Translations under genes and position numbers: made by a program
The notes under the pieces: model-generated
What the model was told of the DNA's origin: nothing
Seen by the model: only the letters and a program-made list of their open reading frames with translations
The model's database searches: none
NCBI RefSeq assembly: GCF_031583595.1
Contig: NZ_CP134145.1
Location: forward strand, 868,001 to 932,000
Reading direction: 5' to 3'
DNA length: 64,000 nt
Origin: Thalassotalea psychrophila
GTDB taxonomy: Bacteria > Pseudomonadota > Gammaproteobacteria > Enterobacterales > Alteromonadaceae
Shown: positions 73 through 5,434 of the stretch, piece after piece
How positions within the stretch are numbered: position 1 is the first letter of the stretch
How the letters are laid out: every line of letters starts with the position of its first letter

Positions 73-227
73 ATGGGATAGCCTGCTGATAATGAAAACT
101 TGTGATGTTTGGTCTTCGCGGAGGCTTGTACGTGAAGGAAAGCGAGTTAGGTGCAAATCCGCCTAACTATTTACACCTGAAATATTGGGTACTAAAATTA
201 TTCCTATATAGGAGTAGGAGAAATACT

Positions 228-746
228 ATGAAAAAACCATTAGCACTAATACTAATTATGCTATTAGCATCGTGCTCAAACACAACTGTAGAACCAAAAA
301 CAGTATCAGCAACTGATGGATTAGCTACAGTAAGACTGGTTAATCCTCATGATTTTACTGACATAGAAACCGGTAATTTTGGTATACAGTCTGATTTCGA
401 GCAGAGTGTAGCTAACAAGTTGGCTGAGGCATTAGCAGACCACTTTAAAGAAACTGATGGAACTATTGATATTACATTCACTAATATTGATTTAGCAGGC
501 GAAACTAGGTTCAATACGCAGGAAATACGTGTATTAAAAGATTTATATATCCCACGCATGTCGTTCGAGTATGTATTCAAAGATGTAGCAGGTAACGTTA
601 TGCTAGCTGATACCGTTGATATTAAAGATATGGGCTATCTATCCAAAAGACTAACGGGTAGAGAAGCTAATGACTCGATAGGATACGACACGCGTATGCT
701 AATAGAATACTTTGAGGAAGTCTTAAAAAAGGTTAACAAAACATAG
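228..746 (+). CDS. DUF3016 family lipoprotein
   Basis: A 172-residue predicted lipoprotein of unknown function. The N-terminus (MKKPLALILIMLLASCSN) is a lipoprotein signal with lipobox LASC, so the mature protein should be anchored by Cys16. The body matches my memory of DUF3016 proteins: a conserved DLAGETRF segment, then RVLKDLYIPRMSFEY, then a DIKDMGYL stretch near the C-terminus. An open frame runs upstream to 102, but the ATG at 228 is chosen because the lipoprotein signal starts there and a purine-rich ribosome site (ggagtaggag, 211-220) sits just upstream. It stands alone, with about 340 bp before the next gene. Confidence 0.8.
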   Translation: MKKPLALILIMLLASCSNTTVEPKTVSATDGLATVRLVNPHDFTDIETGNFGIQSDFEQSVANKLAEALADHFKETDGTIDITFTNIDLAGETRFNTQEIRVLKDLYIPRMSFEYVFKDVAGNVMLADTVDIKDMGYLSKRLTGREANDSIGYDTRMLIEYFEEVLKKVNKT

Positions 747-2104: not shown

Positions 2105-2139
2105 AACTATTAACTATTAACTATTCACTATTCACTATT
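2105..2139. repeat. heptamer tandem repeat at the 3' end of the transporter gene
   Basis: Five consecutive 7-bp units: three aactatt followed by two cactatt. Read on the minus strand these are AATAGTG/AATAGTT units. The array overlaps the stop codon and last residues of the transporter gene that ends at 2128. A related AATAGGG array overlaps the end of glnE at 58068. Confidence 0.9.
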
Positions 2140-3468
2140 GTATTTTCTTTGATAATGTTTACCAATAAAAAATGCCAATATGAGCATAAGTAAAGTCAAG
2201 AACAGGTTCAGAAATAGAAATTTTTTCGGCAAAATATTTAACAGATTCAAACCTATAAACACAGTGGCAGCTTGCAATAAATCGCCAATTCGCCAACAGA
2301 CAGTATCAATAACGGCCCTAGCTTCATACTGTTGCCTACGTGTCGTTGGTAAGAAAAGTATCTGCAAAGTCGTTTTCTGCAATGAATAATTTAGGCCATT
2401 TTCGGATATTTTTATGACTTTAAATAGCGTAACTAAAGGAAAGAATGCTAGTAGACCATAGCCCATAAATATCAATAAAGGTGTAACTATAAAAGCGATA
2501 TTAAACCCTGCCCATTTGATCAACCGTGAAACGATAAAAAACTGTATAAATAAACCAATTAAATTTACCCAAAAATAAAATTCGCTGTAAAACTTACCAA
2601 TATAACTTTCTTTTGAGTCGACCATGTTACCCATCTCTATCCCTTGCTGATAGAACGTTTCAACCAATACCGCCATTAAGTATTCTCCAATGCTACTGCA
2701 CCAGTTCATTAAAATTACAAAAATAGCAATCAGCAGTAAGTAGCGGCTTTTGATTACCAGTGAAAAACCGCTTAACAGAGAAGGCTGTTGCCTAGTTGGA
2801 GTTGGTGCAACATTAAAACCTGTTGTGTTGTATATCTTTACATTTGCGGCCAAAAATGCAGAAACTAGTAATGGAATAATACTTATCAAAAGCATATGGA
2901 AACTGTCAAAGTAATCCATTAACATCCTCGATATTGCTGAGCCTACCCAAGCACCTAAACTGGCACCTACGGCAACAAGAGCAAACAATCTTTCTCCAGA
3001 CTTTTTGTTATAAACTTGAGAAGTAAAAGCCCAGAATTGTGACACCATGAGCACCCCAAAAGCACCAAGCCAAAGAAAGAAAGGAATCGAAAGTTTGTAT
3101 CCTGCTTGTCCTAAGATATAAAATAATAAAAGGTTGCATGAAAAGAACACTGCAATGCAAATCATGAAAGTACGACTGCTGAATTGACGTGAAAATACTC
3201 CGTAAATGGGAAGTAAAATAACAAGGACTATTACTTGTAGAGCAACAGCATAACTACGCGCTTCTGCGCCGCCTTCCACTAAAATCAGAGTATCCCGTAC
3301 AGGCTTTAATAGATAAGCTGTGAGTAGTAAAAAAAACAACGACCCCATCAACAATATAATATTCCAACCTTCACCTGGCTTAATATCAGCACCATTTGCT
3401 AACAATCGTTCAATCCAAGTTAATGGTTTATAGTTATTATGTGATTGTGAGTTATTGGGTTTATCCAT
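2128..3468 (-). CDS. Npt1/Npt2 (Tlc) family nucleotide transporter
   Basis: A 446-residue polytopic membrane protein with about 12 hydrophobic helices, resembling the Npt/Tlc ATP:ADP and NTP/NDP exchange family. Supporting features are the N-terminal cytosolic segment, KPVRDTLILVEGGAEAR in the first helix-loop region, and SGERLFALVAVGASLGAWVGS in the middle. Family members in Rickettsia and plastids exchange nucleotides across membranes; the substrate of free-living marine homologues is not established, and some databases label them MFS transporters. The gene lies 28 bp downstream of the phosphatase-kinase fusion, same strand, so co-transcription is likely. Its 3' end is overlapped by a heptamer repeat, so slippage could alter its last residues. 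Confidence 0.75.
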   Translation of the reverse strand: MDKPNNSQSHNNYKPLTWIERLLANGADIKPGEGWNIILLMGSLFFLLLTAYLLKPVRDTLILVEGGAEARSYAVALQVIVLVILLPIYGVFSRQFSSRTFMICIAVFFSCNLLLFYILGQAGYKLSIPFFLWLGAFGVLMVSQFWAFTSQVYNKKSGERLFALVAVGASLGAWVGSAISRMLMDYFDSFHMLLISIIPLLVSAFLAANVKIYNTTGFNVAPTPTRQQPSLLSGFSLVIKSRYLLLIAIFVILMNWCSSIGEYLMAVLVETFYQQGIEMGNMVDSKESYIGKFYSEFYFWVNLIGLFIQFFIVSRLIKWAGFNIAFIVTPLLIFMGYGLLAFFPLVTLFKVIKISENGLNYSLQKTTLQILFLPTTRRQQYEARAVIDTVCWRIGDLLQAATVFIGLNLLNILPKKFLFLNLFLTLLMLILAFFIGKHYQRKYNSE

Positions 3469-3496
3469 TAACTACATACCCTATAATTATCACCAT

Positions 3497-5434
3497 TTAA
3501 GGACTGGTAGCGGTTGATAATATTAAGTCTCTGCGCTTTAAAATCGCTTTGATTTGTGAGCTGCTTAGTAAGTCATCAAGCACTTTGTTTAATTTTTCAT
3601 AGGTTAGGCTTGTTAATTTTTTTCTAAACAATGACGACAGTTTCAGGGTTGTTTTCTTATACATATCTGGTGGGTGTTGGGATATACCAAAGGCGATAGA
3701 ATGATCGATAAGGTATAGCATAAAGTCTTTTCTAGAGAAGTTTAAATTAGTTTGATTTCTATCATCGTTATATATCAAAACATCGAAGATATAACGAGTG
3801 ATATATTGTTCTAGCCGTGGGCAATAACTATCGAAGACAATGCCTTGTTCTTCTCTTTCTTTTTCGCTGATCAAGTCATTAACCCAATATTGCAACAATC
3901 CATATTTCCCGTCGATTTTTCTACGCACTGCTACAGGAACCAGATTTAAGTCGAGCATACGGTCAATACGAAATGCGGCTATTTCATAATGGTATCTGTC
4001 TGCTACATACCTTTGATTTGGATATCGACCGTTGTCCAATCTAGGGTCTGAGTCGTGGGTTTTAAACAGTGCCCTGATCTGTTTACCATCTTTTGTTAAA
4101 GATAATATGTTGGATTTGGTTATGCCCACACCTATTGGCTCTGAATTGATGACTTTAGCGGTTAACAAAAAGTCTTTAATTTGTTCATCTGTCATCGAAC
4201 TAGAGCCGACGCTGAAGCGATTAGTTTCGCTTATTATTGGCTGTAAGCTATTTGACTCTAACGTTTGAACTTTTATCATATCGCCATCGATAACAACCGC
4301 TCTGGCGTTGCCTTTATAAACATTTTTTAACATGCCGGTGTCGGCGAGAATGACTTGTCCAGATAAACGACTATTCACCTCTTTGTATAACGGAGTGTGT
4401 CCCACTACTATGCGTTTAGCTCCGAGTTTTTTGAGTATGCGTTCAGTGTTGAAGGATTCACTATAAGGATGGCAATAGGCATTACCTCTATACCACATTG
4501 GACTCTTATCGGAAAACGCAAAGCTACTTTGCAATTCGTGTAAACGAATTAAATCCTTGTACCATTTAGGTATTTTATTTCTAGAGTTTTTTTTATTTTT
4601 ATCAATATAGGGCTGTATTGCTTTGTTAAGGTAATCAATTCGATTCCAAAAATCAGCAGTTTCAGCAAGTATACCTTTTGCTTGTAAAGCGGCGACAATC
4701 TCCTGATATTCCCAAACAGGCTCAATTATTTTGTTTATCTCTGTCAAATCCATGTCATGCAGATCTGATGATAAGCCGCCATGAACAAAAACAGAATCAT
4801 TGATCTTGATAACTGGTCTAGCTGAACGAAGCCAGCGTCCATACTTTCCGTTCGGTAAAAAAGCCGCAACAAAAGCACTGAACCCTGGTGGATGTTGCGA
4901 GGTAAAATTTGCTGCCAAAACATCTTCACTTAAGTTAGGATGGTTGGCATTAAACTGAGTCTGTAAATTTACTCTTTGCTGCTTAGTTTCTTCTGGTATA
5001 AACGCGGAAAACTCTTCCTTTGATACATATCTAAGATCACCAGTTGTCACCATTAGTTCGTGATTACCTAGCACCTGCAATACCATTCCGCCACTTTTCG
5101 GGGCTTGTTGTTGCAGTTTGATCAATAGATCCATAACTTTGCGCGAATCTGCCCCTCGATCAAGCAAATCGCCTAAGCTAATTAAATATGTATTACCGCC
5201 AATCCAATCAGCATTATCATTAATCAGTTTAAGTTTTGTTAAAAGAGCATGAAATTCTGGATAAGCACCATGAATATCGCCGATAGCAATAACTTTATTC
5301 GCGGTTTTATAAGTAGCTGAAAAATTAGTTTTCGCTGATACGGTGCTTATAAAAAAGCCGAGTATAACCAATTGCACGCATATGACTTTCTTTAGCGGTA
5401 ATTTATTCAACAAAATATTCAAAGCCCTATACAT
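3497..5434 (-). CDS. secreted metallophosphoesterase fused to a Fam20C/HipA-like kinase domain
   Basis: A 645-residue exported protein. Residues 1-34 are a signal peptide ending in VSA. Residues about 46-370 are a calcineurin-like PPP phosphoesterase: GDIHG (52-56), GDLLDRG (88-94), GNHE (123-126), VHGG (217-220) and GHTP (345-348), all metal-binding motifs intact. Residues about 430-640 look like an atypical kinase: a lone Lys in ALFKTHD (K458), a helix with YHYEIAAFR (E484), then IYNDDRNQTNL (D557/D558, N563) and LIDHSIAFG (D577). This spacing resembles the catalytic loop and DFG equivalent of Fam20C/HipA-type kinases. The phosphatase call is firm; the kinase call is inference from motif order. 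It is first in a likely operon with the nucleotide transporter. Confidence 0.75.
   Translation of the reverse strand: MYRALNILLNKLPLKKVICVQLVILGFFISTVSAKTNFSATYKTANKVIAIGDIHGAYPEFHALLTKLKLINDNADWIGGNTYLISLGDLLDRGADSRKVMDLLIKLQQQAPKSGGMVLQVLGNHELMVTTGDLRYVSKEEFSAFIPEETKQQRVNLQTQFNANHPNLSEDVLAANFTSQHPPGFSAFVAAFLPNGKYGRWLRSARPVIKINDSVFVHGGLSSDLHDMDLTEINKIIEPVWEYQEIVAALQAKGILAETADFWNRIDYLNKAIQPYIDKNKKNSRNKIPKWYKDLIRLHELQSSFAFSDKSPMWYRGNAYCHPYSESFNTERILKKLGAKRIVVGHTPLYKEVNSRLSGQVILADTGMLKNVYKGNARAVVIDGDMIKVQTLESNSLQPIISETNRFSVGSSSMTDEQIKDFLLTAKVINSEPIGVGITKSNILSLTKDGKQIRALFKTHDSDPRLDNGRYPNQRYVADRYHYEIAAFRIDRMLDLNLVPVAVRRKIDGKYGLLQYWVNDLISEKEREEQGIVFDSYCPRLEQYITRYIFDVLIYNDDRNQTNLNFSRKDFMLYLIDHSIAFGISQHPPDMYKKTTLKLSSLFRKKLTSLTYEKLNKVLDDLLSSSQIKAILKRRDLILSTATSP

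Follow-up and report, generated by a model that had tools for sequence, protein, structure and literature searches.

The stretch analysed here, referred to below as the window, is 64,000 nucleotides of the Thalassotalea psychrophila genome (a member of a marine genus; contig NZ_CP134145.1, positions 868,001 to 932,000 of the forward strand). Near its start two neighbouring genes lie on the minus strand. One encodes a PPP-type phosphatase fused to a predicted kinase-fold domain. The other, immediately downstream, encodes a nucleotide transporter (NTT). The original prediction was that the two form a reversible envelope phosphorylation module with its own ATP supply. Both open reading frames (ORFs), and the 28 bp between them, were exactly where that prediction had placed them. 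The features are listed below. Fractions refer to alignment A1, which has 59 rows with the window protein first.

3497 to 5434, minus strand: gene for the phosphatase-kinase fusion, 645 amino acids (ORF list, Pfam, homologue search)
5333 to 5434, minus strand: signal-peptide-like start, residues 1-34
4250 to 5302, minus strand: PPP-type metallophosphoesterase domain, residues 45-395, active-site residues present
3500 to 4234, minus strand: predicted Fam20/PI4K-like kinase-fold domain, residues 401-645
4061 to 4063, minus strand: K458, candidate ATP-binding lysine (58/59)
3761 to 3763, minus strand: D558, candidate catalytic aspartate (57/59)
3746 to 3748, minus strand: N563, candidate metal-binding asparagine (55/59)
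3704 to 3706, minus strand: D577 of an IDH motif, candidate metal-binding aspartate (59/59)
3469 to 3496, minus strand: intergenic gap, 28 bp; no terminator-like site found
2128 to 3468, minus strand: NTT transporter gene (Tlc/Npt, ATP/ADP-carrier family), 446 amino acids

Scans for promoters and terminators returned fewer sites than were found in shuffled sequences.

Residues 47-348 of the fusion matched PF00149 with 51.1 bits, which passes the gathering cut-off of 21.5. The phosphatase set D53, H55, D89, N124, H218 and H346 was present in the window protein and complete in 55 of the 59 A1 rows. Thus, as predicted, this half is an intact PPP metallophosphoesterase. Elsewhere in the genome, at G000:C1:2640849-2641685, a further stretch of this phosphatase type lies in a 389-residue frame with no kinase part.

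The C-terminal region matched Fam20C (PF06702, 18.7 bits) and HipA_2 (PF20613, 17.9 bits) below the respective cut-offs of 26.8 and 27. Its predicted fold is that of a kinase and is nearest to Fam20; HipA was farther away than both Fam20 and PI4K-II. A protein search with this region returned 70 homologues at E ≤ 1e-3, 17 of which have a precomputed PF20613 match. All but two (68/70) are 482-705 amino acids long. Hence, the fusion is not a chance event. The search admitted only proteins of 0.55-1.75 times the query length, so free-standing kinases could not turn up.

A motif order like that of Fam20C or HipA, involving K458, E484, D557 and D577, had been proposed. K458 and D577 proved conserved. 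Conversely, position 557 varies (T in 22, D in 16 and E in 14 of the 59 rows) and the conserved aspartate is D558. Position 484 is E in 43 rows and D in 16. D558, N563 and D577 occur together in 55 rows. By alignment, K458, D558, N563 and D577 are candidate equivalents of the Fam20 catalytic, metal-site and ATP-site residues, and the domain would be an active kinase. The D-N-D order is common to the fusion and HipA, HipA_2 (PF20613) and HipT. The loop DRNQTN differs from the animal Fam20 motif. The HipA part of the comparison fared less well, and a HipA-type toxin was set aside because Fam20 was closer by structure and by profile. An anti-phage system was also rejected; the only PADLOC match was weak (PDC-M66A, 2.6e-6 over 41 residues). 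Relative to a same-genus copy, differing positions fell at the third codon position in 127 of 186 cases for the phosphatase, 88 of 146 for the kinase and 172 of 250 for the NTT.

The fusion begins with a basic, lysine-containing segment followed by a hydrophobic core and a cleavage-like site, VSA|KT. By inspection, and by a simple rule, this resembles a signal peptide. The rule was positive for 137 of 152 kinase ORFs, yet also for 245 of 591 control ORFs. From its N-terminal sequence, the fusion is probably exported from the cytoplasm.

The transporter scored 47.5 bits against PF03219 (TLC; cut-off 21). A profile built from 37 transporters, A2, matched solved ADP/ATP carriers (9j3n, 1.8e-42; 9j3j, 4.7e-33). 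Among the best 120 of 731 protein matches (the best 120 of 650 were taken in a second listing), some close relatives are named NTP/NDP exchange transporter or ADP,ATP carrier protein, and others hypothetical. PF03219 was a weak probe for co-occurrence of this subclade, finding it in 23 of 48 genomes, compared with 44 of 48 for A2 (three genomes are not common to the two sets). We know of no member of the subclade with a tested substrate. From its family, this NTT may exchange ATP and ADP. For NTTs that fall outside the classical clade, a phylogenetic survey (PMC5381601) mentions one that transports NAD and another that did not transport nucleotides.

Some longer NTTs (L009, 4521-6161; L028, 15388-17064) have a C-terminal Ig-like domain of the He_PIG/dystroglycan type that scores just below the Pfam cut-off. 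Judged from sequence, this would suggest a C-terminus on the outside. Profile A2 also picks up the Ig-like domain of giant proteins. Giant open frames of 4893, 4437 and 2197 amino acids (G164:C1:3250900-3256575, G055:C220 and G118:C200) match the C-terminal Ig-like part found in long NTTs; the G164 frame has it in tandem copies.

We compared gene neighbourhoods across genomes. Kinase domains were called degenerate when residues aligned to D558, N563 and D577 were other than D, N and D; free-standing kinases were kept outside these counts. Of 409 confirmed stretches, the first sample took the best 80 and is for that reason biased towards proteins close to the window's own. It yielded 81 loci matching the kinase (two being copies of the window itself); 33 of these had an NTT-type ORF. 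For the 84 kinase ORFs, leaving out the window's own, an NTT lay in the locus of 29 of 47 intact domains and 7 of 37 that were not intact (L076 counts as degenerate here only because its contig ends there). A second sample came from other families. Twelve places already in the first sample were excluded beforehand, and 12 of the remaining 55 rows were dropped because they shared 97% identity or more with rows of the first sample. The two samples were then combined at a 95% identity threshold, with adjacency defined as within 1.5 kb. Rows that had no NTT and less than 1 kb of downstream sequence were omitted (8 from the pairs test described below, 6 after removal of redundancy). In this non-redundant set an NTT was adjacent to 33 of 55 intact fusions, compared with 7 of 56 degenerate ones. 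For rows less than 97% identical to the first sample, the counts were 8 of 14 and 0 of 26.

Transporter and fusion are therefore neighbours in many genomes, as the original prediction required. In 13 of 35 cases the nearest NTT lay downstream and co-oriented with the fusion, with gaps of -1 to 128 bp; in the others it was convergent or upstream. In protein listings, the Desulfatiglans fusion GX654_07775 and NTT GX654_07770 have neighbouring locus tags. Of 147 genomes from the family to which the window belongs, three encode the full fusion, all with an adjoining NTT, and an NTT-type gene was present in 3 of the 144 genomes lacking it. Three weak partial kinase matches (A3; 2.5e-7 to 2.4e-4) and two A2 matches to the Ig-like domain alone were not counted.

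Each of the seven degenerate fusions with an NTT shares its cluster with an extra, exported-looking gene that can be aligned to the D, N and D of the kinase, tentatively so for L042. The extra gene encodes a second fusion-type protein with degenerate phosphatase residues (L034, L043), a free-standing kinase homologue (L032, L085/L167; PF00454 below cut-off), a far relative (L066, L072; PF00454 below cut-off) or, in L042, a member of family A5 whose kinase nature is uncertain. At L082, phosphatase, NTT-HEAT and kinase are each encoded by a gene of their own, one after the other. In the L004 genome, one fusion is without an NTT and a second fusion-type protein adjoins one (L183). From this make-up, phosphatase and kinase may share a chain, be divided between two, or be carried by paralogous chains of which each retains a single residue set.

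Family A5 is an unannotated, exported-looking family of about 350 amino acids with the motifs RTRG, GNTD.S, CCHN and PYDFD. In the first sample, an A5 gene was present in 16 of 34 degenerate-only loci compared with 0 of 45 intact loci. The 16 are L033, L036, L038, L040-L042, L049, L051, L052, L055, L057-L059, L063, L064 and L071; 14 of them are rows of the A5 alignment. There was no significant Pfam or PDB match to A5, and its link to the kinase profile was weak (hhalign probability 36%). By its distribution, A5 looks like a replacement for the degenerate kinase domain and may be an undescribed exported kinase. The L057 record is titled as a Klebsiella pneumoniae metagenome-assembled genome, but the fusion in it is similar to fusions from uncultured Gammaproteobacteria and the label may be wrong.

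We propose that the gene pair is a periplasmic reversible phosphorylation module fed by ATP/ADP exchange through the NTT, and give this a probability of roughly 0.55. Since the periplasm is generally regarded as free of ATP, an exported kinase needs a supply. The fusion would be exported to the periplasm, where the Fam20-like domain would use ATP to phosphorylate an envelope target, be it a protein, a glycan or a lipid. The PPP phosphatase would take the same phosphate off, so that the two activities would oppose each other on a target that they may share. An inner-membrane NTT would swap cytosolic ATP for periplasmic ADP released by the kinase. Such exchange could allow an ATP-poor periplasm to support the kinase. 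In a variant that we consider quite unlikely, the carrier has this same role and the kinase domain acts specifically on a non-protein target of the envelope, a glycan as for Fam20B or a lipid as for PI4K-II.

Several observations weigh against a strict reading of the proposed module. First, 22 of the 55 non-redundant intact fusions had no NTT within 1.5 kb, and a strict rule that an intact kinase needs an adjacent NTT was rejected. In genomes with an intact kinase whose locus lacks an NTT, some A2 match was found in 17 of 18; several of those inspected fall in a clade not linked to kinases. Second, an NTT is missing from 15 of the 16 degenerate loci with A5. Should A5 proteins be kinases, a neighbouring NTT would be dispensable. 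Third, the correlation between intact kinase and NTT was not significant in a phylogenetic pairs test. The phosphatase-domain tree has at least 10 changes in kinase integrity and at least 15 in NTT adjacency. The independent pairs differing in kinase integrity number 1 on starred branches and 9 on all branches; these contrasts are too few for a sign test to reach significance. A further limit on the association is that a single family, with a kinase-domain match in 79 of 107 genomes, supplied many of the degenerate rows. Thus, predicted fold, neighbourhood and signal-like start favour the original interpretation, and the incomplete link and the pairs test leave it partly supported.

That test, together with the many homologues that combine degenerate kinase residues with an intact phosphatase, would fit a different account. 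The genes could be neighbours through lineage inertia, with the kinase fold serving as a binding module and the phosphatase as sole working part. We regard this as very unlikely. Adjacent NTTs lie in several orientations, belong to several subtypes and come from both Gammaproteobacteria and Acidobacteria. Moreover, the D/N/D set is kept in 55 of 59 A1 rows, and split and subfunctionalised versions exist.

A tree of 77 NTTs, 39 of them kinase neighbours, bears on what the carrier does. The places were fetched by choice and so the sample is uneven. A clade of 38 holds 30 of the 39 kinase neighbours and its sister clade of 24 holds none. Of the eight non-neighbours in the kinase-linked clade, seven are from genomes with an intact kinase elsewhere; the exception is L169. 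The unlinked clade adjoins genes that look metabolic by eye, and other NTT-type genes in the same genomes likewise adjoin unrelated, metabolic-looking genes. This would suit a carrier that imports a nucleotide or phosphorylated metabolite, such as NAD or scavenged nucleotides, with the phosphatase-kinase preparing or regulating uptake and no export of ATP. Conversely, the concentration of kinase-linked NTTs in one clade argues against import. So do the tracking of NTT adjacency with an intact kinase or second kinase-like gene, and the intact phosphatase residues of nearly all degenerate fusions without an NTT. An exported kinase would, in addition, still require a nucleotide source. We therefore consider import unlikely.

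NTT-HEAT genes adjoin kinase-phosphatase genes at L061 (6697-9998) and L082 (1683-4454), and at L061 a cyclic-nucleotide-binding gene accompanies them. It is possible that kinase-phosphatase genes are a partner of this uncharacterised family. Close to the pair in the window is a DUF3016 lipoprotein-like gene (102 to 746, plus strand; PF11454, 1.1e-24). A gene that is DUF3016-like by eye adjoins the fusion at L032 (9203-9715, minus strand).

Literature searches found no published description of this gene pair. The kinase-phosphatase-linked NTT clade offers a concrete, two-gene test of NTT function and of periplasmic ATP supply. NTTs occur in many free-living bacteria, and their role there is left open in the sections of the phylogenetic survey cited above (PMC5381601). 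A broader claim, to which we give somewhat less than even odds, is that free-living Gram-negative bacteria reversibly phosphorylate periplasmic targets at the expense of ATP, which an ATP/ADP exchanger dedicated to this task supplies across the inner membrane. This would be a bacterial counterpart of Golgi phosphorylation and the job of one NTT clade, perhaps also of some NTT-HEAT proteins.

Parts of this arrangement resemble known systems. The cold-active Shewanella PPP phosphatase (1v73/2z72) has chains of only 331 and 338 residues, too short for a kinase domain. The NTT belongs with the ADP,ATP carriers Tlc and Npt (PF03219) and represents a subclade from other bacteria; unlike those carriers, some subclade members bear a C-terminal Ig-like or HEAT part. 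CotH is described, in a portion of one report, as an atypical bacterial spore-coat kinase sharing sequence similarity with Fam20C (PMC12189002). In our fold comparison, CotH was not nearest to the C-terminal domain. Through this domain, the pair adds a relative from bacteria to the animal Fam20 kinases of the secretory pathway, such as Fam20C (a casein kinase of the Golgi) and Fam20B (a xylosylkinase). The domain differs from these in falling below the PF06702 cut-off, in being bacterial and in being joined to a PPP phosphatase. SLC35B1 is the ATP/ADP exchanger of the Golgi and endoplasmic reticulum lumen and belongs to a carrier family unrelated to NTT. Lumenal phosphorylation with SLC35B1 and the bacterial pair described here would work alike, each having a kinase outside the cytosol fed by an ATP/ADP exchanger.
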